DNA from: Tribonema minus
Taxonomy: Eukaryota; Sar; Xanthophyceae; Tribonematales; Tribonemataceae
Assembly (NCBI GenBank): GCA_017506865.1
Contig: JAFCMP010000532.1
Location: forward strand, 62,001-126,000
Reading direction: 5' to 3'
DNA length: 64,000 bases
Below are positions 18,697 through 60,766 of this stretch, piece after piece. The position numbers and the translations under genes are program-made. Within the stretch, counting starts at the first letter, position 1. Each line of letters starts with the position of its first letter. The notes under the pieces are model-generated. The model saw only the letters and a list, made by a program, of their open reading frames with translations, made no database searches and was not told the DNA's origin.

Positions 18697-20425
18697 GGTT
18701 GTTGTAGTTGGAGCTGCTTGCCGTCATAGGCACAGCAGAGGTGCGCGTGAATCACAGCAGTATAAGGATACAACCTTGGTCTATCGAAATTATCCGTTCG
18801 GCGCAAGAGCAGCGTGCAAGTAGACTCAGCGAGGGTTGACGCAGTCACCTTGCTCCATCGCCGTTTTGCCGTTGCTCCTATTTTCCAGCGCTCTTGTTTA
18901 CGTTAAGTTACTGGTGTTCTCAAGCTGGTGTCGGGAGACTCGTAGGTGGAATCTAGTGGTGCAGCTGTCGGCAGACACGCTTTCTTCCTCCTTCTTGTTA
19001 CAGTCCCTTTCCAACTCAGTCCCACGCCTGGGTTACAAGACCTGCCGCATGCTTGCGGGCAAACTGTGCGTCACCTGTGTGGTCGTTCGACTCCTTGATG
19101 TACACGGTGACCTAGAACTGCATTCATAGATGACACCATGGTATGAACGTTTGTCGGACGCACTGTCACCTGTTTCCTTGCATTGTGTGGCATTGGTGCT
19201 CACCTTCGAGTTGCTGTCTTTAGAGTGGCATACATGGTACACGGCGTAGACGATAGCAATCCATACACGCACGCAGCCAACGGTATGCGGCTCTGATTGA
19301 GCTGATTGGATTAAAAAAAGTGCTTCGGAAGCACCAATCAAAGGCACTTTAAGCCTGCCGCTTTCCAGTTCCTCCAAATTCGCTGATAGCATGAGGATTA
19401 CGTCCCGGTCACCGTGTGCGGCATCGGAATGATATTTGGCTGAGCATATATATACATACCGGTTTTGGGGTGCATGACAGGCTTTTGATAGCTATTGCAG
19501 TGTATATGTCATGCGGTCAGTCATCTGAAATGTGAGAAACTCGGACATTGCACAAGGATATGTTGTTGTCACGGCACATCTGGACATCCAAGTCTGGTAA
19601 CTCCTGAACATGTGATCAGACAACTCCTGAACATTCAACTGAACACACCACCAGATATTAGATGAGACCACTCTGAAACAGTGGACAAATTTCTGTTGCA
19701 CCGCACCTTTCAAGTGGAGGGCGGTTGTATCTACGGCTACATTGGCAAACAGTTCCTGCATGTGGCGACACTTTGCACCTGTATCTGGCCGGCTTGGCGC
19801 GAACCGCACCGCCTAAGACATGGAGCAGAAGCGGGGCGATTGCCGCTGATGATGTGACTGGGATACTCAATTGTGACCGTCCAGCTGATGAGCTAGATTT
19901 TTAACTTCTCAGCCTCATGGATGCACAACGATACTGAGTTGGCTACTGCCAACTTGCCCGTTCGGCAGCAGTTGGTATTGCAGGACTTTACTCGACTGAC
20001 GACATGTTGAGGCAAGCAGCATGGCACGGAGACGAAGAGATGCCATTGCTTCTTGCACACGCTCAAATACTGCAAGCGTCTACGAATGACTTCTGGCGAG
20101 AGAACATACACCAGATGCTCAACTGGTTGCACGGCGCTGCTGCTGCTGCAGCTGTATCATCAAGGGGGCAAGCATTGTGACCTTGAGGACACCTCAGCTC
20201 GATACGAGTCCAACGCGAAGATTCGTGGCTTGTACTCGCTTTTACGCTATAAAAGCTTATTGAAGCCGAAAGATTCATTCATTGAAGCATGTGTGCAATT
20301 GAATGTCATATGCAGGCACGGTGTGCTCGCAGCACGCTCAAACTCGAAGTACGACCAACCAACTCGTGCCCTCAAACACACAAACTTGCTGCTTGCGACC
20401 GCAACACGTGGGAATCTGACTCAGC
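18697..20425. other. Intergenic, no gene seen
   Basis: This is the convergent space between the kinase gene and the broken repeat gene. From about 20,290 onward the sequence is homologous to 22,460 onward and belongs to the duplicated block of the next two genes. Confidence 0.5.
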
Positions 20426-40676: not shown

Positions 40677-43600
40677 GTGCGTCAACCGCAACTTGAACTT
40701 TAGCGCGCCCTCCTGCTCAGTTTCTGCACAAGCGCAGCGATGCTCGGTGCTTCGATGTCGCCCTTTGTAAAATTCATCAAGAATGGGAAGCACTGGTGAT
40801 TCACAGTAGATGGTACATGATGGCTACTCAATTGCGGGCTCGGCGCACCAGCATGGCTGGCGCTCATTATATGCTCCCCCCCCCCTGGCGTATCCAACAA
40901 GGAACCAGGTCGCTCAAGTGTGGCTGTGACGAATGCAGCTTGATGAGCAGCGCACTGCGGCGCATTGACTTCAGCAAAGAGCCTCGGTGACATGCGTACA
41001 CTTTACATTTGCGGCAGAGTCAAAGTGCCCGCGCGAGCTACTGTTGCGCTTTTGCCCCTGTGTGACATACCCCCCGCCCGTTGCACGACATGTCAGCGTG
41101 TTGAGTGCGCTAATTCTGCCAGAGCAGGCACTGCTCACAAACGCGCATCGCGTCTACGCGTACCGTGAGCGCCCTCTTGAGCACTGTCGTGAACAACACT
41201 TATTTTGCACAGAGGGAATCACACCGCGCTGCGTCTCTGTGCACTGCCCACGCCGCCCCTGTCTGACCGCAGCGCCAGCGCCTCTTTTAAGCACCATCAT
41301 CAACATCACTTGAACATAAGGACTCACGATGCGCTGCGCCTCTATGCACTGCCCACGCCGCCCCTGTCTGACGGCAGCGCCAGCCCCTCTCTTGAGCACC
41401 GTCATCGGCAACATTTGTTCTGCAAAGAGGGACTCACACTGCCCTGATCCTCAGCACACTGCCTTTGCCGCCACTGTTTGACCGCAGCGCGAGCATGAGC
41501 AACACTTGCACAAGAGGACTCGTACCGCTCTGCGCATCTGCGCGCTGCCCACGCCGCCCCTGTCTGACCGCAGCGCCAGCGCCTCTTTTGAGCACTGTCA
41601 TAAACAACACTTGCACACAAAGAAACTCACACCGCGCTGCGCCTCTATGCACTGCCTGCGCGCCACTGTCTGACCGCGACGCAAGCGCCGCTTTTGAGCA
41701 CTGTCACAAACAAGATTTCCACACATAGGGACTTACACTGCCCCGAGCCTCTGCACACTGCCTTCGCCGCCACTGCCTGACCGCAGAACGAGCATGTACA
41801 ACACTTGCACAAGAGACCTGACACCGCTCTGCGCATCTGTGCACTGCCTACGCCGCCCCTGTCTGACCGCAGCGCCAGCCCCTCTTCTGAGCACCGCCAT
41901 CAGCAACACTTGCTTTTGCACATAGGGACTCACACTGCCCTGCGCCTCTCACGCCGCCCCTGTCTGACCGCAGCGCAAGCGCCACTGCCCGCCGCACCTG
42001 CGCTGGTCGTCATCGAAGCGCCAGAGCCTGCAGCCGTAGGCGCGGCTCTGGTGCGACCGCCGCCGCCGCCGCCGCGCTGGCAGTGGTACACGAACGGCGG
42101 CGTCGCTCGGCGGTTGATACGCGCGCCGGGACACCCACGCGAGTGGAACGGTCAGGTGCTGAGCATGGAGTCGGTGGTGCGGCGCAGCGACGTTCCAGTG
42201 CGCGCGGAGGTACTGCAGGGCATGACCAGGTATGCATGCGCTGATGTTTTTCTTCATTTTCTTAAATGTTTTTGCTTTGCGCTCGTGGCGCGCTTGCGGC
42301 CATGCGTCGCAGACAGTACGTCATGATAGGGGTCTGCAGCCGGTGTTGAGCGACTATCACGCACCCGGTGGCACGCGGCGCTTGCGCGCGCCGTTTGCCA
42401 TCCAGCTCACGACCATATGATATCATCGGGGCGCACGTCGAGGCACCACTTGACACTGCGCAAGCCTCCAGGAATTCCATTTCACACAGCGCGTGGGATT
42501 TGAAGCACCTGTTGAGGTTCGGGACCCACACGCCATCATTTCACAGGAACAGGGCGCCGCCTGCAAGATGACGAGAACCTCTGATCGCTAGGAAGTTGAG
42601 GTTGGCAATTCACACATGCGCTCGCAGATTCACAGCATGAGCGGGCTCCCATGCAGTGAACTGAACGCATTGGCAACGTTGACATCAGCCCGCATGCACA
42701 CGCTGTTCACTCCGCCCTGACTTCAACTTCAATCTGCCTTTTAGAGTACCCACGGTATGCACACCTCACCGCTATACACACCGGTGCCTCGCTGATCACG
42801 CATACATACATACCCCCTGCGCGCCGCACGCAGCTGCGACGCCGCGGCACTATACATACCAGTAAATCGTTGATCACACATACATGCATACTCTCTGCGC
42901 GCCGCACGCACCTTCGACGCCGCGGCACTATACATACCAGTACATCGTTGATCACACCTACATACATACATACCCTCTGCGCGCCGCGCGCAGCTTCGAC
43001 GCGGCCTTCACGCGGCTCATGCTGGCCCACCCCGACCGGCACATCGTCTTGGCTGGGTCGGACCCTCAAGGGCTCATGCTCGCGGGGTGGAACGCCCAAG
43101 GCTTGACGCGCGCGGTGTGGGCGGCAGTGCTCACGTCCGTCGACGCGGCTCAGCCGGGGCTGCAAGTGCTGTTCGTGGCCTCGGGAGACGGCACCAGGGA
43201 CTTTGATGACCTCCGAAAGCTGCGGCGCGCCTGGCCGGCGTTGGCTCGTCGCGAAGTGAAGGTCAGGGCGCCGCAGCTTGCGCTTGCTCCTCGTTTCGTA
43301 CTGCAGTCGGCAGGTAGAGCTGGCTCGCGTGCACGGCACGGGAGAGAGGTACTGCTGCTCCGTACGTGGCCGTGTACGCAAGTTGAAGTTGTGGATGCCA
43401 TGCGCAAGTGACAGGGCTCAGGCGGGGCTGCAAGTGCTGTTCGTGGCTTCGGGAGATGGTATCAGGGACTTCAGCGACTTCCAAAAGCTGCGGCGCACAT
43501 GGCCGGCATTTGCTTCTCAACGAGTGAAGGTGCGAGGCCCTGCGGGCACGGCCGCTTGCTCCTCATTTCGCACTCGAGAAACGAGGAGCAAGCGGCCGTG

Positions 43601-46600
43601 CCCGCACCTTCACTCGTGGACGAGCAAACGCCGGCCATGCGCGCCGCAGCTTTCGGAAATCATCGAAGTCCCTGAAGCCATCGTCTGAAGCCACAAAACG
43701 CACTTGCAGCCCCGCCTGAGCCGTGTCAACGGAGTTGAGCACTGCTGTCGGCAGGCGGTCGCAGACGGGAACGCGTGCGTCTCGATGGCTAGAATGGTTT
43801 TTTCACACTGGTCGTGTGCGCAAGTTGAAGTTGTAAATGCCATTGAAAGTGCACAAGGGCAGAGGGCGTGTCTTATGCATGCGCACCGTGCGCGCAGCGT
43901 CATGCAACGTTGCTCCATGTGGTGCGGTGGCTGTCAGCGTCTAGCTGAGTATTCTTCTGCGAGCACTGATTCAATTATCAAGCACTGAGTGAATCATTGG
44001 CGTTCCCGGGCACTTGCCGGGGCGGGCCTGCGCTGGCAACAGCACATAGTCGCATTGTTCAGCTACATTTCTGGGAGCAGTTCTTGCGGATTCCTGCGGC
44101 ATGCCTGGATGTGCTTGAAGCAAACCTGTCAAGCAGAGATTGGTGGTCTAAACTGCTGCTGCTTGTGTGACGTGTCGCCTCGTGTTGCTATGGACTGCCT
44201 TTGCTGCAGGTCGCGTTTATCAATTGGCGCAGTCTTCACACCGAAGAGCTGCATGCCGCGCATGTTGTGGTGGGCTCTGCACTTATGGTGAGCGCATTCG
44301 TAGGGCCTTTAGTACCTGAACTTCAATGTTGAAGTGAGCTCTTGTGCTACTCAGCCTTGGATCTGCTGCACCCAGTCGCCTAGTGTCGCTGCGCTCAAGT
44401 GACACATGATGCACACCGCTGCTGCTGCCCCCCCCCCCTGTCTCTCAGCATTGCGATCGTTCGACTGAGTCTTGGCCTTGTGTGCTTCGTGGCGGCATGT
44501 CAGAACACTAAGTCGCTCGATGGGGGTGCTGCTTAGGGTTAACCCTAACCCTAACCCTAACCCTAAACCTAACCCTACCCTAACTCTAACCCTAAACCAA
44601 CAGTGACGATCCCCCGAGTACCTACCCTGTGTCTGGCGGGCATCTGTGTTGCGCTGAGGAGTCGGGGTGCAACAGTTAAGCAGATGCTCAACAACGCATT
44701 GATGCATCCCATGCGTGCATTTGCTGGGCTTGCGTGCTAGAGACGCAGCTCCCCTGCTATGCTGCACGCCTGCCTTCCTCTCCGCACACAAAACTACGAG
44801 CCGATGTAGACAACTTGCATGCGCGTCTTGCTTAGCCTGCACCATTGCGGCGACGCACGCACCCGTCACAATCTCTCTGTTCTCATACCCAAACCGCGCA
44901 CGACTCTTGGTGCATGTGCAGGTGACTCTCTTCCTGAGTTCGCGCCAAGGCAATAACCCGAACCCCCCACACACCCTCGTCATCCACCGCCTGGACAACG
45001 CCAGCTTTCTCGTGCCAGAACCGCGAGAGGGGGGGGTCGGCATGGGGGCGGCAATCTTCACCAGGCTGAGGCAGGAGTTGAGGTGAGGTCACAATGCGGC
45101 TGCTGTGGCATCTGTGCTTTGTCAGCGTGCTTTGACTGTGATCGTGCTTTGACTGTGATTGTGCTTACCAGCGGGACACCACTGCGCGATGTGCGACCGA
45201 CTACCTTGGATGCGCAATGCCAGACCTTAGTTTGCGATGGCAGATTGCTGCTCACTGAAAGCGGTTGGAAGCGTCGGAAACTGTTGGTCCAAGCCTTTGC
45301 AACCTTCGTTCTGATGGCTTACAGACACAGTGCTGAGTCGCTTGATCCAAGTGGGTTGGTGTGCGTCCCGGGTAGTGCGTACATGAGATGGGCGATGTAC
45401 AGTAGTAGGCGTGGAAGTGCCATCAGTGCGAGTTTGCCTGTACTTGAAGTAGAGGCATTCGATTGTTTGCCGCGATGCAGGTCGAATGAACGTACTTCTA
45501 GATGCTGACTCACACCCTTGTTATTATCGTGACCCTAACCCTTACCCTAACGGATGTTTGTCCATCCATTGCTACATAGATCCTCACGTGACACCTGAGG
45601 CCATGTAGCGGCTCATGATCCACACGCTGTCCTCTATCATCCCCATGTCAATTCACCTCTCAGCAGCTCATGGAAATGGCATTCACGAAATGAAACCGAA
45701 CAGCTCATCGTGACTTGAAACCCTATTAGTAGGGCTAGGGTTAGCCCAGGGCTTGCCCTAACCCTAGTGAAGCGCAAGGACGATATAAGAGTGGTCACAC
45801 TGTACGAGCGGTGGGGCTGACGGGACGGACTCGCTCTTGTATCGTAGCCGTTGCTACATTGCAATCCCATTGCTCCCCTCGTACGGCAGCGACATGCAAA
45901 CTCCGCGTCCCCGCGCGCCCCGCGCGCCGCTCCTATGTTGACCCCCCTTTGCACTGCTGCTGTGCCCCCCCCCCATCCCTCAGATGCCGCACCGCGGTGA
46001 CAGCGCAGTGTTGGCACGAGCAGCAGCTTGCGGACATTGCCCCAGTTATCGAACGGCTGACCCCGGCTCCCACGCAAACGCTGCACGTCTGGAGGAACTT
46101 CAATGAGGTGAGGCACGCGTAGGGTTACGTCATGCGTCGGCTTCTAACGGTCGGCACTTTGCTGAGCATCTCATGTAATGTCTGCACAGGGGCGCCCGTG
46201 CACGTGTGCATGTCCTTGCTACTAGTTTTCCTGCAGAATACACTTGTCGCTGCTGTGCGTCTCCTCAGTGCTCAGAATCGGTGTGGCGCTGGCGATGCTC
46301 ACACTTTGCTGACGTCCGCCCTCCCCGCTTGCAGCCGGAATCGCTCTGGGCACCGCCGCCACCAGCACCCCTTGGCCTTCCTGCAGACGCACCCGCCGAC
46401 GACAACGACGGCAACGCTCAGGCAAACGGTGCACGCGCCGCCGCTGCCGCCGCCGCTGCCGCTGGGGTCGTCATCGCTGCTCGCCGCTGCTACGCTGCCG
46501 CCGTCGCTATCACCGCCGCCGCCGCTGCTCGCCCCCGCCTCGCTGCCGCCGAAGCCGCCATCGCTTGCCGCCGCCGCGCCGGGGAGGTCGCCGCCGCCGC

Positions 46601-46931
46601 CGCCGTCGCCGCTGACGCCGCCGCCGCCGCTGCCGCCACCGCCGCCGCTGCTGACGCGGCTGCCCGTGCTGCCGTCCTCGCTGCCCGCCGCCGGGAATTC
46701 CTCAGAATCGCTGCCGCCAACAGCAACTCTGCGGCTGCGGAGCGCGCTGCGGCGGCGCGGCGGAGCGTCCAGCGGCCGGAGGTTGAGTGGAAGTACGAGA
46801 GCATCGCCGAAGGCGCCGCGGCGCCGCACCGCAGCTGCATGGGGGTGCTCACAGCGGCGCAGGAGCGCGTGCTGAGCGACCTCGCCCGCCTGCAACAACC
46901 CCCGACAACCTGGTGCGTGTGTGTGCGTGTA

Positions 46932-46964
<33 letters not shown>

Positions 46965-49900
46965 GTTGCTGCACAGGGGGGGGGGGGGGGCTTAGCGCAG
47001 GCGTCGTGCATGATGGCAGGAATGAAATCTGAGCGGAGGGCACCGGTCGCCGTGCGGTCTTTGGCTTTTGCGCAGCGCGCTTTGATGATTTGACTTCCAT
47101 TGCTAACGGCGAGCGCCTGTATCATGTAGCGGATCTCACGCCTAAACACGGTCCCCCCCTGTTGCGATGCGTGTATGCATGCGCAGCTCGCACGCCGTGG
47201 GGCATGACATTCATCGCCTTGCCCTGACCAGTGTGCAGCCCCTCGCCACAGACAGCGCCGTCATCGCTGCCAAGACTCTGCACGCAGCCTCCGCTCGCAT
47301 GGGCGCGACTCCAAACTTCAACAGTCGCTGCTGCACCCGCGCGCGCGCACGTGCAGGTTCCAGATGCGGGCGGCGCTGCACGCCGGCAGCGTCCTGGATC
47401 GCCGTGTGCGAGGCCTCGTGACGGGAGGAGCGCGGCTCGCGGCGGCGGCGCCCGCGATGCTCGTCGCCGCGCTGCGGAGCGTCAACACGCGCAAAGCGCA
47501 ACCGCAAGTGCTGGTGGTGGCCGTCGAGGAGGAGGTGCAGCCGCTCTTCGAGATGCTCGAGAGGGCCGCCGCCGCGATCGCCGGCGGCGGCGCGCAGCCG
47601 GGACAGTCCCCGACGAACGGCGGCGTCACGGTGAGACGCACTGTCGAGACGCGATTGGGGGGGTTAGGTTCACGGCGGGGGGGGAGACAAGGGTTAAAGT
47701 TAGGGCTATGTTTATAGATGTAGTAGAGGTATTGTTAGGTTCAGGTTAGAGTTAGGGTTTCGAGTTGGGGCTAGGGTCAGGGTTAGGATAGGTTTAGGTT
47801 TGTGAGGGGCTGCACCTGTCATAGTTTGCTGATGTGCAGCGGGCGCGTGCAGCTTAGGGTTAGGGTTGGGATTAGGGTAAGGGTCAGGGCTAGGATTAGG
47901 GTCGGGGTTAGGGTTAGGGCAGAGCCCCGTCCTCCTATGTAGCAAGTCGGGCCGGGGTCAGCCAGTTGATGCCTGTGCCGTGCAAGGGGGTATGCGTGGC
48001 GCATGGCCCTGTATGCGCCTCTTGTCGAAGTGACAGCGCGCGCCATGTGTGCTTGCGGATAATGGAGCCTCGGTCACTAGATGCGGCCAAGCCTGAATGC
48101 ATAGTGTGAAGTGTGGTGGTAAAAGCCAGCTGTTGCGGTGCCCACGGCCGTATGAGCCTTGTGCGCAGGTGCTGTGATCAACGGTGTGATCGGAGCGGTA
48201 TGTGTGAACTTCAAGTGCTGACAGACAGCAGCGTCACACATGAAGTTGACTGGTGACATGACATGATGCCCCGTGCAGCAGGACGCACCTGACTGCACGA
48301 GGCATGGCTGCCTGTGTGCGTGTCGCGCCAGTTTCCGGTGAAAGCGCGCATGCGGCGCATCGTAACCCTAGTGGAGGGCGCCAAACCCTATATCACATGG
48401 GTCACGCATGTATGATGCATTTCGACTGGTACAAGCGCATACAGTACAGTTCTTGACGGACTGTTAGTCACCAAATCTGACTGTGCGCTCCCTCCTCATA
48501 GGTGTGCACCCCATGGACGTTTGGCCAGGAACAGACGCCGGTGACGCAGCACGTTGTCGTGGGCACCTGCTACGAGGTATGTACGTGGTTCGCATCAGCC
48601 GCACGGACCGCATGGTGCCTCAACGTTACGCTCACATACAGTGCCGTTACAACTGTAAGTGCCACGTGCATGCCATCGGCGAGGTGACAGTGGCTGTTTT
48701 GTTAAGGCGGTCGTGCTCTGTCAGCTCAAGTATGGGTCTGTCACCCATCTCAATCAGTTGTTGCAGCACACGGTGGCCAGTCACTGCGTTGGCCTGAAGT
48801 TTGACCGCTGCGCACCCGAGAGAAGTTCAATGTTGAAGAATGCAACTGGGCCCCAGCACTGCGGTACAATCCTGTCATAGTGCTGTGTGCGTGCCGTGCT
48901 CAAGCGCGCCCGTGCTGCATCACTAGGCCGCACAGCGCACCAGGTATGTACACCAACGGCAGAGCGTCGCACGGCTGCTGCATATGCCATCGGTAGCTGT
49001 CACTGGCATCACACTGGCGCTCCTTTCGTACACGCTGTGTGCAGCTGGAATGGTGGCTGCGCCGGGGCTACGTGGCCGCCTCCGACGTCGCCATGCTGGT
49101 GGTGGCGAGCGCTGATAAAGTGCTTCTGGCAATGAACGCGGCGGAGGACCTGATGTTCATCAGTGATTGCGCGAGGTGAGCACATGCGCGCTCGGCAGCA
49201 GCAATGCGCCGCGCTCGCACACACCGCTTCATGTGACCGCCTGTGAACAAAGTTGAAGTTGAGTTTGCGGTTGAAGTGCGCCCTCGGCGAGTCTGCGAGC
49301 GAAACCGTGAAGTGGATGGTTTTTGAAGTATCATCAGGATCTGATCAGCCAGCACACGCTAAGCTCTCTCCAGCAATCCGAGTCGTACCTGCCGCATTTG
49401 ACTTGATGTAGTCTCAAAGCTCCTGTGCAGAAGTGAGGGCCAGAATGACATAGGTATGGCGGATTCGAGGTTGGCACTTGTGCACTCTGTTTCCCCCTCC
49501 AACACCTGCATCCAGATCACACTGTCAGGCAGAACAGCATACAAAACGCACAGGGTACACACGGCCACGACATCAGGTCGCTTCGATGGGATGCGCCTGC
49601 TGCAGATGGTATTATGCCACAGTCACTCACCTGCCTCCGGGATCCTGGTGCCCTTGTCTACGCAACCGATGACTGTCGCACCCTAAGACACAAGCATGCT
49701 CATCCTCAAGTTTGAGGTTGCAAGACAGCGGCATCGCTTGATGTGGAACGACTGCCCGAGGCCAAGCGATGAGTGCACTGTCACACGTACAGCCTGGCAC
49801 AATCAGCAAGTTCCGCCAGGATTGATTGCAGCTGAGGCATGTGTAAAAAGGGTCAGCTGCGCTCGCGAACGCATAGCAGGTATCACGACCAAGGACTTGG

Positions 49901-52900
49901 CGAGTAGATGTCGTGTGAGGTGAAAGTGCACGACACGAGCGGGAATGTCTCAAGCCACATGTGCAAACACGCCTGCCGGCCGCCGTGGTGCTCGTTGTTG
50001 CCCCGTGTCTGATGCTCGATGAGACACTCACCGCCGGCGCTGCTCTTGCCTGTGTGCGGCAGCGAGGGCCTCTCTCTTCTCGCGTGCTGCGGGGTCCTGC
50101 AGAAGAAGACTGCGGCAGTGCTGGGTCAGCTCGCGCCTGCATCGGGGGACATTGCGTGTCTCATGTTGAGGGAGCCGTCACCGCCGGTGAGCACCCTCTA
50201 TGTACACGCTGCGTACACGCTGCGATTTGCCCTTGTCGACACTGCTAAGTAGGTAGCGTTGAAGGGCTGCCACGAGGTAGCTGATGCCATCACTCGCAAA
50301 CACTACTTACACAGACGGAGAGTCAAGTACGTAGTCTGCTTTCCTGGTCCCTGTAACAGGCGCAAGCTGCACGGGCGGTTGGCTTTCACAGATGCGCACG
50401 ACTTTGACGTTTGTCGCTCTCAAGTTATTATTGGGTACAGCAGACGCCAGTATGGAGTAGCGGCCAAGGTGGCTATGCATGATCGAACACCTTCTAGCGT
50501 TGTGCTGTGTTGTCAGTACTTGGCACGCCGCGCGCGCTTGCAGCAACGTACTTACAGCGCGCGCCTGACCACCGCGTTGTTGAGCTCCGCACTAAACTTC
50601 AAGTTGAGCTTTGTGCTCTTCAAGTCGCGCTTTGTGCTGAGCCCTACGACCAAAATGTGAGCGATGCGTCAAGTAGCTCGAGCTATATGCGTCAAGCGGC
50701 CTGTGACTGCTGCAGCAGCGCTCACCTGTCAACGACGGCCGCTGCGCACGGTGCGCAGGCGCGAGGCCTGCGCGCAGCCGCCGCTGCAGCCGCCGCCGCG
50801 GACGCGGCGCGGCGCGCCGCTCGCGAGCGCAGAGACGCGGTCGCCGCCAACAACGCTGAGGCCGTCGAGCGCGCCGCGGCGGCGCGGCGCAGCGGCCGCC
50901 AGCGCAAGTTCAAGTGGGCGGAGGAGTGCGTGGGTGATGGGGCGGCGGACCCCAGCGTCAACAATGACGTCGAGAAGGAGCAGTGGCGTCTGCTAGAGGA
51001 TCTCGACTGGCAGGGGCGCTTCGTCACCACCAAGTGCGTGCGTCTGTGCATGTGTTGGTGTGTGTGTGTGCGTGCGTGTTGAAGTACATGTGTCTTTGCG
51101 TGCGCGCGTGTGTGTGTGGTGGGAGGGGGCGCAGGGGGTAGAAGGGGGGTCTCGGCGCAGGCATCTCGCATGTGGGATGAGCTCGTAGCGCGCTGATTGC
51201 CGTGCGCTGCCTGTGGCCTTTGTCTTGGCGACTGTCGTGGGTGTACCACGCGGCACACGGCGCGCATGACATCGCCTCGCCCTGACCGATGTGCTGAGCG
51301 TTGATCTTCCTTTCACCAGAAAGCACCAGCAATGCTGACCATGACAACACTCTGTCGCACATCTTTTTGAATGGTATGGCGTGAGACTTGACATCTCCTG
51401 TCGGCTCTTCGCGCCTGCGTGCTTGCACGTGCGTACAGGTATCACCTGCGCGCGGCGCTGCTGGCGGGCCGCATCCTCCACGAGCGACAGGAGAACCGGA
51501 CGCAGGCCGAAGCCGCCGAAAACGCCGAAACCGCCGAAACCGACGGCGACGTCCCGGCGGCCCCGCACGAGAACCTGGTACTGGCAGAGGCTCCGCCCGC
51601 CACGGCTGAGCCCACGCTGCTCGCCGCTGCGCTGCGGAGCGTAAACAGGCACATTGCGCGCACGCAAGTGCTGGTAGTGACTACCGTGGCAGAACAGCGA
51701 GTGGTGGATCTCAAAGACGCTCGGGGAGATGGTCGACATCACGCACGCGGGAGCGCCCGCTCTGACGGTGAGCTGCGCTGTGCGCATTGGCGGTTAGGGT
51801 GAGCAGCAGGACTAGGTAGGGTGAGGGTTAGGGTAGGGTTGGGGTTAGATCAGGGTTAGCGTGAGGGTCAGGGGTAGGGTTAGGGCTAGGTGTAGGGTCG
51901 GGGAGCTGCGCTGTTCGCAAGGGGGTTAGGGTGAGCAGCAGGACTAGGTAGGGTGAGGGTCACGGTTAGGGTTAGGGTTAGATTAGGGTTAGCGTGAGGG
52001 TTAGGGGTAGGGTTACGGCTACGTGTAAGGTCGGGAGCTGCGCAGTTCGCACCGGGTTAGGGTGAGCAGCACGACTAGATAGGGTGAGGGTTAGGGGTAG
52101 CGTTAGGGTTTGATTAGGGTTAGCGTGAAGGGTTAGGGTTAGGGTAGGGTTACGGCTAGGTGTAAGGTCGGGGAGCTGCGCTGTTCGCACGGGGGTTAGG
52201 GTGAGCAGGACTAGGTAGGTGTGGGTTGGGGTTAGGGTTAGCTTAGCAATATAGTTAAGGCTAGGATTAGCGCTAGGGGTGGGGTTGGGGTGGTGTGGGA
52301 TAGGGTTATGGTTAGGGTTAGTGCTGGTGTTGGGGTTAGGGTTTAGGAGACGTTGCGGGTCAGGGTTCCGGTTCACAGGTGATGATTTGCTGGTGAAACT
52401 TGTACACATACTTGCGCCAGGGGCGTGCGTGGCACAGACCCCACTAGGGCCCTCTTGTTGAGCAACATCCCAAGAGAGCTGCAGCCGATGTTTGTCACGC
52501 CTGTGTAGACTTCCACCCTGTACGGACCGTGACATCATCATGGAGGACAACAGAAGACAGATAACCAACGCGTTGCTTTGTCTCCTCCCGTAGGTGTTGA
52601 CAGCAGGGGCGGTGACAGCAAACCAGGCGCCCGCGACGCAGCACATCGTGGTGGGCACCTACAGCCAGGTACATAAGTGCTTCGCATCAGCCGCAACGCC
52701 CGCATGGTGGCCTATCGCAAGTGGCGGCCATCCACTGTGTTGGGCTCATGCGCATTCGCAGCGCTTAGAAGTTCCATTTTGAAAATTGCCGTTGGGCCCT
52801 CTGACGCGCCACCACAGCGGCGTGTTTTTGTCGAGTTGCTGCATGCGCGTCGTGCTCCCGCGCGCCCGCGCTGCATCGTTGAGCGGTCAAGCACACACAC

Positions 52901-55402
52901 CACTCGCAGCAGCGCGCGATCACTACACATGCCATCGGTGACAGGTTGTTGGCGCAACGCTGATGCATCTTTTGTACTTCTACACGCTGTGTGCAGCTGG
53001 CTGCGTGCCTGCGCTCCGGCCACATCCCGGGCGCGGCCGTCAGCACGCTGGTCGTGATGGAGACCGCCGGTTTGCTCAAGGCGCCGAAGGCTGCAGACGC
53101 GTTCATGTTCATCAGGGACTGCTGCGGGTGAGCGTATGCGCGCAGCAGCAACAACGCGGCGCGTTGACCGAGCACTTCACGGCTGATTGTGTGCAATGTT
53201 CAATTGGGGCTGCAGTTGAAGTATGGCGTCCCTGAGTCTTTGCAAAGTTATTTGAAGTAGGTGTATCTAGGAGAACCCAATGGGCAGGTGCAAGGAGCGT
53301 GCTGCGATTTGCGTCGCATATGATGCATTTGCAGCGTGCAGTCCGAGGACACACTGTTGAAGTTAGAGTCAGCACAGCGAGGTGGCGAAGTTCAGGTTGG
53401 GTCATATGCGTCCTGACCATTATGACAATGTCGGTGCGTGTACTTTACTGGCAAGCACAGTTGCACATCACAGATACAGGCTAGGGTCACACCACCAGGT
53501 TGAAGTTGCCTTGAAGGTCGTCTGCTGCACATGCTGTTGTGCAGCGCTCGACTGCGTGGTGCTCTTGTTCAGGCGACCATCGACAACGCACCAGGAGGCA
53601 CAGGTACACCGTTGTCGCTACGTTGCAAAACGGCAACAGGGCAGATTGCAAGTGCATGGCCCATTTGCCATGCGGTAGAGGCTCTGGCGTAAGCAAATGC
53701 AACCGGATGCAAGTACAGATGCAACATGCATTGCTGCGCTGAGTGCAACGCCGCGTAAAGCACAGGGGCAGCAAGACGCCCTGCACGGCATGCGGCAGGC
53801 ACATCGGAACTTGACAGGCGGCTTCTGAGGTTACACCTACTTGCGCACACGCTCGCTGGTCAGCATGCTGCCTGTCGCTGCCGCCGTGCATCCTGCGGCT
53901 CATCAACTCCTCACGCTCGTCCCTTTATCGGCGCTGCTCTTGCCTATTGCAGCGGCAAGGATCTCTGCGTGCTCGCGTGCTACCGGCGCAATGAGCCAAG
54001 TCATGATGCCACTGAGTCAGCGCTCAGGCGGCTCACGCTCCCATTGGCGAACACAGTCTGCCTCAAGCCGGCGCCAACGCCGGTGAGCGTTCTGCACGCT
54101 GAGATCCTCAGTCGTTGATAGTGCTAGTTGGTGTTGAATCGCTGACACAGAGTAGCAGATGCTATCAGCTGCAGAACTGCACAGACGACGAGTCAAGAAG
54201 TCTAAGGAGTCGGATGTAGTGTTGAAGTCTTACTTGAAGTTTAACTCCTGCATGCACGGGGCTCACGACCTCTGCGGCTGCCACTGTGAGTCAAGGGCGT
54301 GCATGCAACAGATGGTGAGCGCCGACTAGCGGCCGTTGACATCACTGTGTGTGTTGGAGTACACAACTTCAAGTGCAGTGTGGGACTGTGACTGGCCGGG
54401 GGGCGTTCCCCTTTGACCGCTGACTGCGGCTGCAGCGGGTCCAATGTACTTGTTAATCTGAGAAAAAGGAGCCCCTGTGGTTTTGCAGAAGCACGGGCAC
54501 GGCTTTGATGCTTGTGGATCTTGACGTGATCTCAGGTAGAGCAGAGATCAGTTTAGTAGCAGGCAAGATGGCGATGCATGATTGACCTCCGTCGCCGCTG
54601 TGGTGTGTCGTCGGTGCATGGCGACTCAGCGTGCGCCTGCGGTAGACGTACCTATGCCGCACGCCTGACACCGCGTTGTTGAGCTCCGCATTGAACTTCA
54701 TGTTGAGCTTTGTGCTGAGCACTGTTGAAAGCACACCATCAGCCACGTGTCCAGTGGCCTTGCGCCGCCGCAGCAGCAGTGCTCGCATCATCATGGCGAC
54801 GGCGATGCTCAGCCCGCGCTGCCGTCCGCTCTCCCCTCTTGTAGTCCGACTTGCCCCAGAGGCCGCCTCTGCACTCGGCACCGTCCGACCCCCCTGCAGT
54901 GGCGGTCCCCCCCCCTGCGACGGCGGCGGTTCGCCCCCCTGCCGCAGCACCGGTGCCACGCGCCACGCACGCCCCCTACTGCGGCGGCGGCTATTCCCAC
55001 GCGTTCACCTCCCACAAGCCGCCGGTCGTCTTCAGCGCGCGCCCGCCAGCTGCGGACCAGAATGCTGCTCCAGGGAACGTTCCTGAGAAGAAGGAGGCGA
55101 CGGCAGCGGCGCCCGCTAAGCCCGACGCGGCTGCTGCGCCGCCGACCAAGCCCTCTCCCGCGCACGACAAGGCGAGCGCTCCCGACGCCAAGGCCCCGCG
55201 CGCAACCAGCGTCGCGAAGCCCCCGCACGAGGAGCGCACCAGCACGGCGACCACCAGTAAGTCTGGCGCGAGCGACAAGAAGTCCGGAGCGGCAGCACTG
55301 CCGCGTGGTGATGCCGCTAAGGCTAGCCGCGGTCAGGCGGACGCAGCCGGGAAGCCCGAGGAGTCGACAGAGCCCGCTCCCCCCGAGACGGTCGGCGACG
55401 GC

Positions 55403-55434
<32 letters not shown>

Positions 55435-58400
55435 CGCTGCCGCCGCCGCCGCTTCCGCCGCCGCCGCTGCCGCCGCCGCCGCGGATGCGGCAAAGGAGCA
55501 CAGGACCGCAGTCGCCGCCAGCAACGCCGCGGCTGTGGAGCGCGCCGCGGCGGCGCGGCGCAGCGGCGACCGGCCGGAATCCAAGTGGGCGGAGGAGCAC
55601 ATGGGCGATGGGGCGGCGGACCGCAGCGTCAACAATGACGTTGAGAAGGAGCAGGCGTGTCTGCTGGACGCCCTCGACCGTCAGGGGTGCCCTGTGACTA
55701 ACAAGTGCGTGCATCTGTGTGTGTGTTGGTGTATGTGTATGTGTGTGTGTATGCGTCTTTGCGCGCGTGTGTGTATGTGTGTGGGGGGGGGGGGGCGGGG
55801 GGGCAAGGAGCAGCCCAGCGCAGGCATCTGTGGGATGAGCTCCTAGCACGCTGATTGGCGTACTGTCTTCGGCCTTTGTGCAGCGCACTTGTGTCATTTG
55901 AGGTCTGCCGTAAGCTGCACATGCCAATATGTAGTAGCGGTGGCCGAGCGCGCGTTTGCTGTCTTGGAGACCGTCATGGGTGTACTGCGCGGCACACCGC
56001 ACATATGACATCGCCTTGGCCTGACCAATGTGCTGAACGCTGACTTCCCTCGCCACAGAGAGCACCAGCAACGTTGACCACTACAAATTGCATCAAACAT
56101 CCGTGTATATGGTTTGGCGTGACCCTTAACGCCTACCGCCGGCTCTTTGCGCCTGCGCGCGTTTGTACGTGTGTACAGATATCAACTGCGCGCGGCGCTG
56201 CTCGCGGGCGGCATCCTCCACGCGCGACAGGAGAACCGGACGCAGGCCGAAACCGCCGGAACCGCCGAAACCGCCAAAACCGACGGCGACGTCCTGCAGG
56301 ACAACCTGGTGCTGGCAGATGCTCCGGTCGCCATGGCCGAAGCCACGCTGCTCACTGCCGCGTTGCAGAGCGTCGACAGGACAAAGGCACGCCCGCAAGT
56401 GCTAGTGGTGGTTTCGAGATTCGCGCTGCGGCAGGTCTTTGAGGCACTCGGGAAGATCATCAGCGACACTCCGCCACCGGGACTGCCCCCTCTGCAGGTG
56501 AGCAGCAGGAGAAGGGGTGACGGTGACACAAAGTTTGGGAGTTGAGGTTAAGGTAGGGTTAGGGTTAGGGTTAGGGTTAGTAAGGGTTAGCGCTACGGTA
56601 AGGGTTGGGGGAATGTTAGGATTAGGGTTCGCATGACGTTCAGAGGTGGCGTAGGGTTTCGATTCGCAGGAGAGGTGCAAGGACCAGGGTAATTGTCAAG
56701 TGCCATTTTGCTGGTGAAACTTACACTTCAAAGTACACACATTGTTGTGCCAGGTCCTTTTGTTCCAGCGATAGCAGTGGTGTTGTCGCAATACGAGCTG
56801 CAGCCGATGCTTGTGTACGCCCGCATCCTGTGCGGTCATGACATCATTGCGGAGGACACACAGTGCACAGATCATCAACGCGTTGCTCTTTCTCGTCGCG
56901 CAGATGGTGGCGACAGCTGCGTTGACAGCGGACCAGGAGCCTGCGACGCAGCATGTCGTGGTCGGCACCTGCGACGAGGTACATGTGTGCCTTTGCGTCA
57001 GCCGCAAAGACGGCATGGTGGCTTGTTGCAGGCGGCAGCTGTAGCGCTGAATGCAGTGCATACAACTTCAATATTGAAGAATGGCATGGGGCCCGACGCG
57101 CGCTCACACGCCAGCGCAGCGGCCTGGTGTCATGGTGCTGCATGCGTATTGTGCTCAAGCCCTCCCTCTTGCTGCGTTGTCCCATGCCAAGAGCCACCAC
57201 TCACAGCAGCGCACCATCACTGCACATGCCATCGGCGACAGTCGTTGGCGTAACACTGATGCATCGCTTGTACACGCTGTGTGCAGATGACTGAGCGCCT
57301 GCGCTCCGGCCACATTTCCGGCGAGGCTGTCGGCATGCTGGTCTTGTTCAACGCCAACAGAGTACTGTGTCCACCGAGGGCGAAGGATCAGCTGGCGTTC
57401 ATCAGGGACTGCTCGAGGTGAGCGCATTCGCGCAGCAGCAGCATTACGGCGCGCTCACAGAGTGCTTCATGGCTGGTGTGTGCAATGTCCAACTGGGTCT
57501 GCGGTAGAAGTGCGACCTCGGTGACTCTTTGAGAAGTACTTCAAGTACTTCGAAATAGGTCGTTGTTGGAGAACGTTGTGTACTGCTGATGGGCATGCGC
57601 CAGAGTGCGCTGCAATCTGCGTCGCATCTGATGCATCAGCAGCGACCAAGGACGCACTGTTGAAGTTAGGGTCGGCATCGACGCAAGAGGTACCACATCA
57701 AAGGCGCAGGCTGCATGTGGTCACACCACCAGGTTGTCCCGAGGGAGCACCTGCTGCACCATGGTGTTGTGCAGCGCCCGCCTGCGCAGTTGTCTTGATA
57801 AGGCGGCCGTTGACAGTGCACCAGACATAGCCATCATCGCTTCATTGCAACGCGGCAACATGGCCCTTGTCTCGCGGTGTGCCGAGCGGCAGTGGCTCTG
57901 GCGCACGCATGCGCGACAGATGCCACATGCACCAGAATGTGTCAGCTTTGCTCCCTACAATTGTGTACAGCAGAGGGGCAGTGAGACAGACGCCTTGCAC
58001 GGCGTGTGGCGGCACGGTGCAACACGACCTGCAACTGCGGAGGTCAAACTCACTCACCAGAACATCATAATGCTACCTGTCACAGCCCCGCATCTTGTGG
58101 CCCATCAAACAAATCACGCCCGTCCCTCTACCGGCGTTGCTCTTGCCCGTTGCAGCCGCGAGGATCGCTGCGTGCTCGTCTGCTGCAAGACACTGACGGA
58201 CTTCACCAAGTCAAAGCTCAAGCAGCTCACGCTTCCATTGGCGTCCACGGTCTGCCTCAGGCTGACGCCACCACCGGTGAGCATTCTGCGCCCTGCGATC
58301 CTCAGTCATTGAGAGTACTAGCTGGTGTCGAATCGCTGTCACAAAAGTGGCAGATGCTATCAGCTGCAGAACTACACAGATGGGGAGTCCAGTATGGAGA

Positions 58401-59101
58401 TCTGCAGTTGTGGTCTTATTGCAGGCGCAGACACGACAGGTGGCCGGCTTCGTAGTGACATGTGTGATGTAACGATCGGCAGCAGCCATGGCGTCAACGT
58501 CGTGCAAAGGCCGGTTACGCAATGGCTGGTGTCCAAACGACAAGGGTAAAGGCCTCGTTGACTGGCCTCATCAACTGCATCTAGCGAGCGGAATGCCTGC
58601 TTGTGATGTCAACTTGTTTTGATGTTGATCGTTTGAGCCGTGAGCATCAATGCGCGCACCGCTCAACGAGCGCTGCTTGGGAGGGGAGCGCGCAGCCACG
58701 CAGCGCAGTACTCATACGGCATATGCTTGTTGGTAGCCTTTACTAGTAAGCGTTGCTCATCACTGACGCTGCATTGTCTTCAGAAGGCACACAGCCTGCA
58801 GGTACATATGCACAAGCAAGAGATATACTTCTAAAGAGGTACCTCTTTTGATGGAAGGCGAGCATAACCTGCAGTATGTCTGTCTGGCTGTAAGAGCAGA
58901 GCTGCACTGAAGTGGGGCTGGCCCGCAGCAGCCTGCACCATTTGCCAGCATCATCATCATACAGCAGTCATTTACAAGCCCATGTGCCAGCTGGCAAGTG
59001 GCCGCCACTGCTCACAACGTCTGCGGTGGCGTGTTCTCATTGCCACAGGAGGAGCGCAGCGCGGGCTTGGGTGTCGCAAGTCAGCACCTGCAGCAGCGGA
59101 C

Positions 59102-59140
<39 letters not shown>

Positions 59141-60766
59141 CCAAAAGCGGGGGCGGCAGCAGCAGCAGCAGCAGCAGCAGCCGCAGCAGCAGCAGCACCA
59201 AGAGCAGGGGCAGCAGCAGCAGCAGCCGTTGCATGTATTCAGTGCGGCGGCGCCTCAGCAGCAGCAGCAAGCGCGTCGCGTCAGTGCTCGTGGAGCTGGG
59301 CAGCGCAAGTCCGGGAGCCGCCATGGAGGCCGAGCGCAGCAGGCTTCAACGACCAACGCTACAGCAACTTCGACCATGCACGCGCTGCCCCCCTCGGCAC
59401 TGCCTTCAGCACTGCCTTCAGCAGCGCCTTCGACGGCAACGTCAGCGGCAGCAGCAGCGGCAGCAGCGGCGGCGGCCGCGCCGGCAAGCGCGGCGCCATC
59501 CACGGTGCCTGCGACCTCAGCGCCTGCTACATCAGCGGCTATGGCTTTGGTGCATCATCGCCTGCTACATCAGCGGCTATGGCTTTGGTGGCTGCATTCA
59601 GTAGTAGCTCCGACAGCGAAGGTGCCTCCAGTGCTCAGCAGCAGCGTCGGCAAGTGCGCCCTCGTCTCCGGCAGCAGCCAAACACCGCCGCGCCCGCGCC
59701 AGTCAGCGCGGCACCTTCCATGCCATCTGTCACCCCAGTGCCTGGCACGGCGGCGGCGGCGGCAGCAGCGGCGGCAGCGGCAGCGGCAGCGGTGGCGCCA
59801 TCCATGCCGTCTGTCGCCCCGGTGCCTGGCACGGCGGCGGCGGCGGCAGCAGCGGCGGCAGCGGCGGCGGCGGCGGCACCGACAGTGCCCAGCTTCACTG
59901 GAAGCTCTCGCAGTGCAGCGGGGGCCTCCTCCGTCGCGCAGCAGGGTCCGCCACGCGCGCGCCTGAAGCAGCGAGCGGCAGCCGTAACGCCGCATGCAGC
60001 AGCCAGCGCCAGCAGCACTCGCCAGGCGGCGGCGCCCACGCCGGTGGCGCCAGCAGCAGCAGCTGCGGCGTTTGGCGCTCGGCGACCAGCGAGCGCCGGC
60101 TTTGCGGCTGCGGCGCCAGCAGGCGGAGCGCGCGCGCAGTCGAATATCGTCAGCGACGACAGCGCAGACTCATCCGGTATGGACACGGACACCATGCGCC
60201 CGTCCAAGCGTGCGGTGCGCGCACGGAGCGGCGCCGCTACTGCTGCTGCGAGCTCCGATCAGCAGCGCGCGACTGCAGGGACGCCTCACGCAGCAGCTGG
60301 CGCTGCCATCAACTCTCAGTAGCCGGCGGCCACGCGCGGCAGCGGCGGCGGCGGCGGCGCGCTGCACCCGGGGGTGCGGCTGTGGATGGGCAGCGCCGCC
60401 GCCGCCGCCCCCGGCTCGTTCACGTGGCTGTTCCAGCCGATGATCCTGGACGCCATCGGCGAGAACGAGGGACTGCCGCGCCCGCGCGGCGTGCGCGCGG
60501 AGGGGTGGTGGGCGTTCGTCGAGGCGTACGCGCGCGCGTTCGCGCACAACAACATCGGGCGCGCGGACCTCATCTTCGCCGACACCGCTGCGCAGCACCC
60601 GCCCCTGCGCGAGGACGTTCAAGCGCGGCTCATGGCGATGTCGCGCGAGCACCACACCGCGCTGCTCGCGTACGCCGCGCGCGCGCGCAACGCCATGACC
60701 GACCCCACCCGGCGCGCGCAGCCGCCGCTGCGGCTCTCGCTGGACCTTAGCACCTACCGGTGCTGA
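32222..60766 (+). CDS. Giant gene: membrane half plus four degenerate DEAD-box-like modules
   Basis: Thirty-three exons join without any phase conflict from 32,222 to 58,276. A last exon or exons run to the TGA at 60,764-60,766. The coding sum is about 7.4 kb to 58,276 and up to ~9 kb in total, or 2,450-3,000 residues. All introns are GT-AG except one GC-AG. Part 1 (32,222-40,676) encodes alanine-rich hydrophobic helices. Part 2 (41,974-58,276) is a five-exon module repeated four times, each copy resembling the first RecA domain of an eIF4A/DEAD-box helicase with all ATPase motifs lost. Part 3 (59,049-60,766) is Q/A-rich and ends in an unrecognised domain. The 5' end is uncertain: 32,222 follows a good acceptor (pyrimidine tract, ttgtag), while ATG 32,257 is an alternative start. 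One module has a frameshift. Splitting into two or more genes remains possible, but the phase continuity argues for one. Confidence 0.6.
33071..33403 (+). repeat. Three 111-bp coding repeats (37 residues each)
   Basis: Inside the second exon the peptide pattern AQRSIRAA, then TTTSARRAAA, recurs with starts at 33,071, 33,182 and 33,293. The repeats keep frame and are alanine/arginine-rich, so they are a coding expansion of an amphipathic helix. Confidence 0.75.
38039..39173 (+). repeat. Intron with degenerate internal repeats
   Basis: The intron opens with a (CTG)n run at 38,044-38,085. A second, exon-end-like copy GCGCTGCGAGGATGGTGAGTG lies at about 38,218-38,238, including its own pseudo-donor. 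Elements resembling GCGCGTTGGCACGTGGCAG recur near 38,130, 38,310, 38,428, 38,550 and 38,660. Confidence 0.6.
41160..41973 (+). repeat. Intronic minisatellite that repeats a splice acceptor
   Basis: About eight ~100-bp units, arranged in a ~298-bp three-unit higher-order pattern, end directly at an exon. Each carries a version of CCCTGTCTGACCGCAGCGCC, at about 41,264, 41,367, 41,475, 41,560, 41,665, 41,775, 41,859 and 41,963. The last copy supplies the acceptor of exon 41,974. Confidence 0.8.
41974..46107 (+). CDS. Module A: degenerate DEAD-box RecA1-like domain (five exons)
   Basis: Exons are 41,974-42,229; 42,994-43,255; 44,210-44,287; 44,922-45,082; 45,984-46,107 (entry/exit phases 1-2, 2-0, 0-0, 0-2, 2-0). 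A proline run and a tryptophan-rich stretch lead in. Compared with eIF4A, HIVLAGSDPQG stands where the P-loop DVIAQAQSGTGKT belongs, and LQVLFVASGDG stands at motif Ia (ALVLAPTREL). AHVVVGSALM stands at motif Ib (HIIVGTPGR), TLVIHRLDNA at motif II (FVLDEADE), and RTAVTAQCWHEQ at motif III (VVLLSATMP). The spacing between them matches. None of the catalytic residues (GKT, DEAD, SAT) is kept, so ATPase activity is not expected. The donor of exon 2 could also be 43,262. This is the most diverged of the four modules. Confidence 0.6.
43417..43740. repeat. Inverted repeat of a duplicated exon fragment in an intron
   Basis: The end of the preceding exon (LQVLFVASGDG, then LRKLRRAWPA) is copied directly at 43,417-43,560 and again in reverse at about 43,590-43,740. 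The arms meet at about 43,565-43,575 around CTCGAG and share GGGCACGGCCGCTTGCTCCTC. The transcript could fold into a hairpin of about 150 bp. Confidence 0.8.
44533..44598. repeat. Interstitial telomere-type repeat (CCCTAA)n
   Basis: About ten near-perfect CCCTAA units lie in the module A intron between exons 3 and 4. Shorter pieces lie at 45,531-45,552 and 45,739-45,770. Exons on both sides exclude a chromosome end here. Confidence 0.85.
46335..50186 (+). CDS. Module B: degenerate DEAD-box RecA1-like domain (five exons)
   Basis: Exons are 46,335-46,912; 47,357-47,630; 48,502-48,576; 49,045-49,175; 50,063-50,186 (phases 0-2, 2-0, 0-0, 0-2, 2-0). Exon 1 starts with a Pro/Ala-rich linker of ~140 residues (poly-Ala runs), then AAARRSVQRPEVEWKYES. 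The fold-equivalent segments are QPQVLVVAVEEEV (motif Ia position), TQHVVVGTCYE (Ib), VAMLVVASADKVL (II) and GLSLLACCGVL (III). They keep the hydrophobic strands of the RecA core but not the catalytic residues. Exon 3 (75 nt), exon 4 (131 nt) and exon 5 (124 nt) have the same length as, or nearly that of, their counterparts in the other modules. The poly-Ala linker suggests the domains are beads on a flexible string. Confidence 0.62.
46913..46990 (+). repeat. (TG)n and G-run at the module B exon 1 donor
   Basis: The donor gtgcgtgt grades directly into a (TG)n microsatellite and then a 12-G run. The same layout occurs at 51,034-51,118 and 55,705-55,797 in modules C and D. Confidence 0.8.
47660..47930 (+). 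repeat. Degenerate TTAGGG-type repeat in the module B intron
   Basis: GGGTTAGGGTTGGGATTAGGG-like text with many variants lies just after exon 2 of the module, the same place as in modules C and D. Confidence 0.75.
50759..54082 (+). CDS. Module C: degenerate DEAD-box RecA1-like domain, with a frameshift
   Basis: Exons are 50,759-51,033; 51,439-51,767; 52,594-52,668; 52,997-53,127; 53,953-54,082. The 5' border of exon 1 could instead be 50,789. Segments equivalent to helicase motifs are ENLVLAEAPPATAEPT (P-loop position), TQVLVVTTVAEQ (Ia), TQHIVVGTYSQ (Ib), STLVVMETAGLL (II) and LCVLACYRRNEP (III). As written, exon 2 leaves the module frame near 51,714 (CTCAAAG). From there the frame one base over reads TLGEMVDITHAGAPALT, which matches module D and restores the expected phase-0 exit. 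This looks like a single-base insertion, an error in the sequence, or an undetected splice. The exon lengths 75 and 131 are identical to those in modules B and D. Confidence 0.6.
51788..52360 (+). repeat. TTAGGG-rich higher-order repeat in the module C intron
   Basis: Four units of about 128-137 bp start near 51,800, 51,928, 52,062 and 52,199. Each contains GTGAGCAGCA-GACTAG, TTAGGG variants and GGGGAGCTGCGC. The unit includes text from just after the exon 2 donor, so the splice-site neighbourhood itself was amplified. Confidence 0.8.
54845..58276 (+). CDS. Module D: degenerate DEAD-box RecA1-like domain with long linker
   Basis: Exons are 54,845-55,704; 56,179-56,497; 56,904-56,978; 57,287-57,417; 58,156-58,276 (phases 0-2, 2-0, 0-0, 0-2, 2-0). 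Exon 1 begins with a ~190-residue disordered Pro/Ala/Lys linker and an alanine run, then RRSGDRPESKWAEEHMGD. Helicase-like positions are QLRAALLAGGIL (the Q-motif neighbourhood, CPVTNKYQ), DNLVLADAPVAMAEAT (P-loop position), PQVLVVVSRFALRQ (Ia), TQHVVVGTCDE (Ib), GMLVLFNANRVL (II) and RCVLVCCKTLTD (III). It is the cleanest copy: the whole module is open and all borders are consensus. Introns after exons 1 and 2 closely resemble those of module C, so C and D are the youngest pair. Confidence 0.65.
56547..56640 (+). repeat. TTAGGG-type repeat in the module D intron
   Basis: GGTTAGGGTTAGGGTTAGGG and variants lie just after exon 2, homologous in position to the arrays of modules B and C but much shorter. 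Confidence 0.8.
59049..60766 (+). CDS. 3' end of the giant gene: Q/A-rich region and C-terminal domain
   Basis: The acceptor tgccacag at 59,048 fits the phase-0 exit of module D and opens a glutamine-rich frame. The same DNA read in another frame gives long alanine runs and is open from 58,982 to a TAG at 60,320-60,322. That second frame includes SNIVSDDSADSSGMD and a basic patch RPSKRAVRARS, possibly a nuclear signal. After the TAG, this alanine frame continues without a stop to 60,766. There it encodes a compact, non-repetitive domain (SFTWLFQPMILDAIGE, then WWAFVEAYARAFAHNN, then REHHTALLAYAARARN). A phase-2 acceptor at 60,342 (gcgcggcag) would skip the TAG. The internal splicing is therefore unresolved, but the C-terminal ~135 residues are convincing. 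No family is recognised. Confidence 0.5.
59096..59290 (+). repeat. (CAG)n trinucleotide tracts
   Basis: Several CAG/GCA runs of up to 12 units are interrupted by CACCAAAAGC and similar. They are translatable as poly-Q, poly-A or poly-S depending on frame. Shorter GGCAGC runs recur at 59,750-59,880. Confidence 0.85.

Follow-up and report, generated by a model that had tools for sequence, protein, structure and literature searches.

A putative Tribonema minus gene with four tandem, degenerate domains resembling DEAD-box RecA1

The ATPase site of DEAD-box RNA helicases lies between two RecA domains, and in these proteins the PTREL and TPGR motifs are RNA contacts. According to a paper on the pseudohelicase Utp25/Def, DEAD-box motifs are divided between the two RecA domains, and Utp25 is, to its authors' knowledge, only the second pseudohelicase to be proposed (PMC9539457). 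Pseudohelicases are scarcely documented. Here we describe an array of four tandem modules, A to D, each made of five exons, on the + strand at 42.0-58.3 kb of a 64,000-nucleotide stretch of the Tribonema minus contig JAFCMP010000532.1. This whole stretch, C529:62001-126000 when the contig is abbreviated as C529, is called the window throughout. The spliced genes of the window, along with 92 matches to the chlorophyll-binding protein family, indicate a photosynthetic eukaryote. By profile comparison, B, C, and D jointly appear to match the first RecA domain (RecA1) of eIF4A, Dbp5, and DbpA and hardly anything else. The explanation of the whole locus that we favor, with a probability of roughly 0.56, is a nuclear gene whose product would carry four degenerate RecA1 domains in tandem, separated by Ala/Pro-rich linkers, and would serve as an ATP-free scaffold or decoy, with the inverted duplicate as a second copy in decay.

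Four copies of a five-exon cassette

DNA self-alignment of the window links modules B, C, and D, whose matching parts are spaced 4.0-4.7 kb apart and, for C against D, are 70-77% identical. The cassettes extend over 42.0-46.1 kb (A), 46.3-50.2 kb (B), 50.8-54.1 kb (C), and 54.8-58.3 kb (D). Copies B, C, and D are clear and A is divergent; neither DNA nor open-frame comparison yielded a match between A and the other three. Exon boundaries were placed by eye from reading frames and GT..AG splice signals, with uncertainty at the 5′ ends of A1 and C1 and the 3′ end of A2 (Table 1). Of the 19 exons for which both ends were set, 18 have lengths that follow the series 2, 1, 0, 2, 1 modulo 3, and the exception is C2; this pattern is partly by construction because the phase-keeping option was taken for the 5′ ends of B1 and C1 and the 3′ end of A2. 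In each of B, C, and D, exon 3 measures 75 nt and exon 4 measures 131 nt, compared with 78 and 161 nt in A, and the equal lengths in the first three are not a product of boundary choice. TG-rich tracts lie 3′ of exon 1 in B, C, and D (46.9, 51.0, and 55.7 kb) and TAGGGT-like repeats lie within intron 2 (47.8, 51.8-52.4, and 56.6 kb). Since both recur at equivalent intron places, the introns were co-duplicated with the exons. The linkers between modules are Ala/Pro-rich, and shared strand, order, and phase suggest that all four modules belong to one gene.

A protein search of the 158-Mb assembly to which the window belongs turned up another array on C529, this one on the minus strand. It belongs to an inverted duplication of ∼46 kb (C529:87.4-132.6 kb versus C529:176.6-223.5 kb) with a spacer of ∼44 kb, of which positions 25381-64000 fall in the window. 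Colinear megablast pieces are 76.8-92.7% identical, and sensitive blastn puts identity as low as 66% around module A. In the duplicate, modules A to D follow one another as they do in the window copy. Its 20 exons were read off by alignment to the window copy, and the duplicate was not used for choosing exons. GT donors are present in 18 of 20 cases (A2 falls within an alignment gap and C1 reads TT) and AG acceptors in 19 of 20, that of D5 being lost. When exon profiles were run over C529:42-260 kb, we found four modules per locus. Further hits were an additional exon 4 in the duplicate, an inverted fragment of exon 4 there, and incomplete copies of exon 2 within an intron of module A. Taken together, the self-alignment of B to D, the phases, the exon map, and the duplicate with the same modules confirm the four tandem five-exon modules proposed in an initial annotation of the window.

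Kinship with RecA1 and loss of the catalytic motifs

To place the modules among known folds, we compared profiles of the module copies from both arrays with the Protein Data Bank (PDB). The profile of all eight copies returned 71 sequences at an expect value (E) ≤10, and the best 60 of these 71 were all DEAD-box RNA helicases, a count in which some PDB row names (p47, BmVLG) are taken to be DEAD-box proteins. At the top were Dbp5 RecA1 (E 2e-6), DbpA, and eIF4A-I. With the B/C/D copies, RNA helicases made up 47 of 50 rows (best E 8e-4), and the three remaining rows, at E 1.1-1.7, were a sensor kinase, a stress protein, and a protease; with the C and D copies alone all 27 rows were DEAD-box proteins (best E 0.0067). 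As a control, reversal was applied to the B/C/D profile and gave one unrelated, non-helicase row (E 0.14). The HMMER alignments to DEAD-box proteins span motif I to past motif II and reach motif III in some rows. Similarly, an hhalign comparison of all eight copies with four DEAD-box frames from this genome gave E 4e-7 over 104 columns, with none of 40 column shuffles scoring as high. No shuffle of 40 equaled the score for C/D (E 1e-5) or for B (E 0.002), although for B the score margin was just 0.1. These alignments start at the end of motif I and extend to motif II, those of A and B covering only the Ib-II part. Because the joint profiles match DEAD-box helicases and the reversed profile does not, a RecA1 origin for B, C, and D jointly is well supported at the level of sequence profiles, and the reversal and shuffle controls bear out for these three the earlier proposal of RecA1 domains in series. 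An own-genome search with Pfam DEAD gave no window match among the matches listed. Exon D2 folded alone reached a mean predicted local distance difference test score (pLDDT) of 55.9, with no confident model. We also considered an intron position common with the eIF4A-like gene but did not use it, as the two share the phase and lie about three codons apart by hand count.

The kinship of module A was approached through B, C, and D. Aligned to them by hhalign, A scored E 8e-4 with a probability of 24% over 160 colinear columns, and none of 100 shuffles scored as high; A also fits the B-D splice phase. This is weaker evidence, on which A may be grouped with B to D and thereby with DEAD-box proteins.

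Motif places in B to D were obtained by carrying the HMMER alignment to Dbp5 over to the module rows, and those in A were set by eye. At the Walker A place (GTGKT in Dbp5), D reads VAMAE, C PATAE, and B LAAAA, and A is without GKT. The motif II place (DEAD) holds FNAN in D, META in C, ASAD in B, and HRLD in A, and the motif III place (SAT) holds CCK, CYR, and CCG in D, C, and B, respectively. For motif Ib (TPGR) we found TCDE in D, TYSQ in C, TCYE in B, and SALM in A. PTREL (motif Ia) is absent from all four modules. The interval from Ia to Ib has no GG in modules A, C, and D; in B and in its duplicate this interval contains GG doublets, possibly a motif remnant. Few parts of B, C, and D are as well conserved as HVVVGT, which precedes motif Ib. 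Counted after VGT, the distance from Ib to II is 23 residues both in D and in the eIF4A-like protein of the same genome, and the distance from II to III is 28 residues in D and 27 in that protein. The initial annotation had seen helicase motifs from the Q motif to motif III, in order and with eIF4A-like spacing. The order holds for the places of motifs I to III in the HMMER alignments, whereas no Q motif was recognized, the best profile-match stretches to DEAD-box rows beginning at motif I or later. The spacing of D agrees with that of the eIF4A-like protein; the 24 and 31 residues noted earlier, versus the 23 and 28 measured here, presumably reflect other end points. Beyond that annotation, we find that the catalytic residues are gone and that exon C2 carries a frame shift.

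That no second RecA domain (RecA2) lies between the modules had also been claimed, and this is supported: a Helicase_C search of the whole genome gave none on C529 among the matches listed, although a strongly diverged RecA2 could escape it, and Ala/Pro-rich sequence fills the linkers. Because the catalytic residues are gone, no RecA2 was recognized, and the ATPase site needs two RecA domains, the modules should not hydrolyze ATP. From their sequence, they look like pseudohelicase domains.

Table 1. Exons of the array in the window copy.
Exon	Position in window	Strand	Content	Evidence
A1	41974..42229	+	N-terminal to module A	GT donor at 42230; 95.6% DNA identity to inverted duplicate
A2	42994..43261	+	motif I/Ia region of A; 3′ end uncertain	frame, splice signals, duplicate
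A3	44210..44287	+	motif Ib region, ..AAHVVVGSALM	
A4	44922..45082	+	motif II region, HTLVIHRLDN	
A5	45984..46107	+	motif III region	
B1	46335..46912	+	Ala-rich linker and exon-1 core	
B2	47357..47630	+	motif I/Ia region	95.6% amino acid identity to duplicate
B3	48502..48576	+	motif Ib, TQHVVVGTCYE	
B4	49045..49175	+	motif II, MLVVASADKVL; ASAD in place of DEAD	
B5	50063..50186	+	motif III region; SAT lost	
C1	50759..51033	+	linker and exon-1 core; 5′ end tentative	
C2	51439..51767	+	motif I/Ia region; carries frame shift	
C3	52594..52668	+	motif Ib, TQHIVVGTYSQ	
C4	52997..53127	+	motif II, TLVVMETAGLL	
C5	53953..54082	+	motif III region	
D1	54845..55704	+	long Ala/Pro-rich linker and exon-1 core	
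D2	56179..56497	+	motif I/Ia region	
D3	56904..56978	+	motif Ib, TQHVVVGTCDE	
D4	57287..57417	+	motif II, MLVLFNANRVL; FNAN in place of DEAD	
D5	58156..58276	+	motif III region, RCVLVCCKTLT	

Constraint, decay, and competing explanations

Comparison of the window copy with the duplicate shows that the exons carry 15 gaps in 4329 aligned bases (3.5 per kb), 10 of which are multiples of three, versus 171 gaps in 10239 bases of intron (16.7 per kb), of which 53 have a length divisible by three. If substitutions fell at random, divergence at the level seen would yield 7.5-8.9 stops per lineage. We saw two in-frame stops in the duplicate, among the codons compared, and none in the window copy, a zero that is partly by construction because only open frames were considered when its exons were chosen. 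The guanine-plus-cytosine (GC) content of exons 2-5 is 0.70, 0.50, and 0.80 at the three codon positions and that of the introns is 0.57. The exons behave as coding sequence, and the reading frame is guarded more than the residues.

The share of construction in that zero weighs against the explanation we favor, and so do the results gathered here. In the window copy, the reading frame of exon C2 is shifted by 1 nt at about 51.70-51.73 kb when compared with B, D, and the duplicate. This shift, the only lesion seen in that copy, should end the protein early unless the exon is spliced otherwise or the assembly is in error. The ratio of nonsynonymous to synonymous substitution rates (dN/dS) between window copy and duplicate is 0.87 over all exons and 0.94 for the same exons in shifted frames; by module it is 0.87 (A), 0.63 (B), 0.82 (C), and 1.05 (D), and between modules 0.69-0.87, ratios that in our judgment the simple method may overstate at a third-position GC of 0.80. 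Judged by these ratios, there is little amino acid constraint. The helicase likeness is also uneven. Searched alone against the PDB, the B copies returned three rows, all Dicer at E 1.8, with no significant helicase match, and the A copies returned five rows, none a helicase. Aligned to the DEAD-box frames of the same genome, A reached E 0.02, and one of 40 shuffles scored as high. Pfam DEAD had no match in the four module proteins scanned (exons 3-5 only for C), nor did any other Pfam family exceed a cut-off in them. When exon profiles were built from B, C, and D only, the window's A2 scored E 0.53 versus E 1.3e-4 for the duplicate's A2, its A3 scored E 8.9, and its A4 and A5 were not found. 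The helicase match expected earlier for all four modules is thus obtained with the joint and C/D profiles and not with B or A alone.

Most of this bears on the question of decay. The array could be a relic, a once-working multidomain pseudohelicase gene that now drifts as a pseudogene in both copies. The window copy has the C2 frame shift. In the duplicate, B4 is short of 1 nt, C2 and D5 each contain an in-frame TAG, the frame of D1 changes, and splice signals are missing at the donor of C1 (GT) and the acceptor of D5 (AG). Because these lesions come with a dN/dS of 0.87, near that of shifted frames, decay competes seriously with the scaffold explanation. We nevertheless find it somewhat doubtful, as indels in exons are nearly five-fold rarer per kb than in introns and are mostly multiples of three, and the duplicate has far fewer stops than random substitution predicts. 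The open exons and intact splice sites of the window copy point the same way with lesser weight, since the gene model was chosen for them. A retained role in binding RNA or nucleotide, with RecA2 supplied by another protein, would fit the conservation of HVVVGT and the GG doublets of B; given that PTREL and TPGR are replaced in every module and that the Walker A lysine and DEAD are gone, we consider it improbable. Most improbable of all is that the DEAD-box likeness arose by chance or because a generic alpha/beta domain converged on it. Single proteins do fall below Pfam significance and A alone has no helicase likeness, but the rows matched by the joint profiles are DEAD-box or RNA helicases (the best 60 of 71, 27 of 27, and 47 of 50), the matches are colinear, and they vanish on reversal or shuffling.

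We therefore return to a gene of four degenerate RecA1 domains with an ATP-free role. Three duplications within one gene would have spread the cassette, and the protein would be a multivalent scaffold or decoy that works without ATP, that is, a pseudohelicase. Its four beads would have retained the core of the domain and might offer a docking site to a partner that usually binds RecA1, and the inverted duplicate would be a decaying second copy. The more specific proposal, that this is a working repeat protein of catalytically dead RecA1 domains in which exon-cassette duplication turned a half-domain into a tandem scaffold unit, is one we put forward tentatively and at less than even odds. We know of no described protein that uses the helicase fold as such a repeat scaffold.

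Surrounding features and relation to known helicases

Several further features surround the array. Tandem repeats of ∼100 bp lie 5′ of exon A1 at 41.2-41.95 kb, several of which contain the splice-acceptor-like CTGTCTGACCGCAG; the 5′ end of A1 is uncertain because its assumed acceptor sits inside such a repeat. Partial extra copies of A2 occur within the intron 3′ of that exon at 43410-43529 (+) and, inverted, at 43578-43745 (-), and positions 20327-20401 resemble module exon 5 in the exon-profile search (E 0.015). Upstream, conserved open stretches at 33.9-36.5 and 39.15-40.66 kb, several with low dN/dS versus the duplicate, look like exons of a membrane protein. The pieces of them scanned with Pfam gave no match above cut-off, and they are possibly a neighboring gene or the N-terminal part of the array gene. 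We had entertained a fifth module in the exon-like stretches at 39.1-40.7 kb and dropped it, as by eye they are hydrophobic and membrane-protein-like. A long Ala/Ser-rich open frame, with a more ordinary-looking stretch at 60.32-60.76 kb, follows module D at 58868-60760; it has no Pfam match, and its frames may be C-terminal exons of the array gene. Overall, the Pfam scans of stretches outside the array returned no family above cut-off. In the duplicate, module D has an additional exon-4 copy (C529:190731-190859, minus strand, locus L037) with an inverted exon-4 fragment nearby. Elsewhere in the genome, a lone exon-1 copy at C124:115939-116092 (locus L045) is 77% identical in DNA to both C1 and D1, and the 30 kb read there contained no further convincing exon of the modules. 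No relative turned up in the viral contigs scanned.

If our explanation is true, a helicase half-domain is reusable as a modular unit, here as four RecA1 domains with no catalytic residues and no visible RecA2, and the phase-matched cassette shows cleanly how a repeat protein can arise by exon duplication. A tandem RecA1-only DEAD-box protein was not found in the full-text literature searched, a limited set with few subscription papers. The helicase units of Brr2 and ASCC3 are complete cassettes from another helicase family, unlike those of the array. What these dual-cassette, Ski2-like helicases have in common with it is more than one helicase unit per chain. To our knowledge, the nearest precedent for a DEAD-box-derived protein without working motifs is Utp25. 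In the paper on it, Utp25 is likewise described as derived from a DEAD-box protein, with vestigial motifs, and judged not to be a working helicase; it is essential and contains each of the two RecA-like domains once, whereas the array would have RecA1 only, four times (PMC9539457). Finally, the modules resemble the DEAD-box RecA1 of eIF4A, Dbp5/DDX19, and DbpA in how the places of motifs I, Ia, Ib, II, and III are ordered and spaced. Unlike these helicases, the array has lost the catalytic and most RNA-contact motifs and appears to consist of RecA1 only, four in series, joined by low-complexity linkers.

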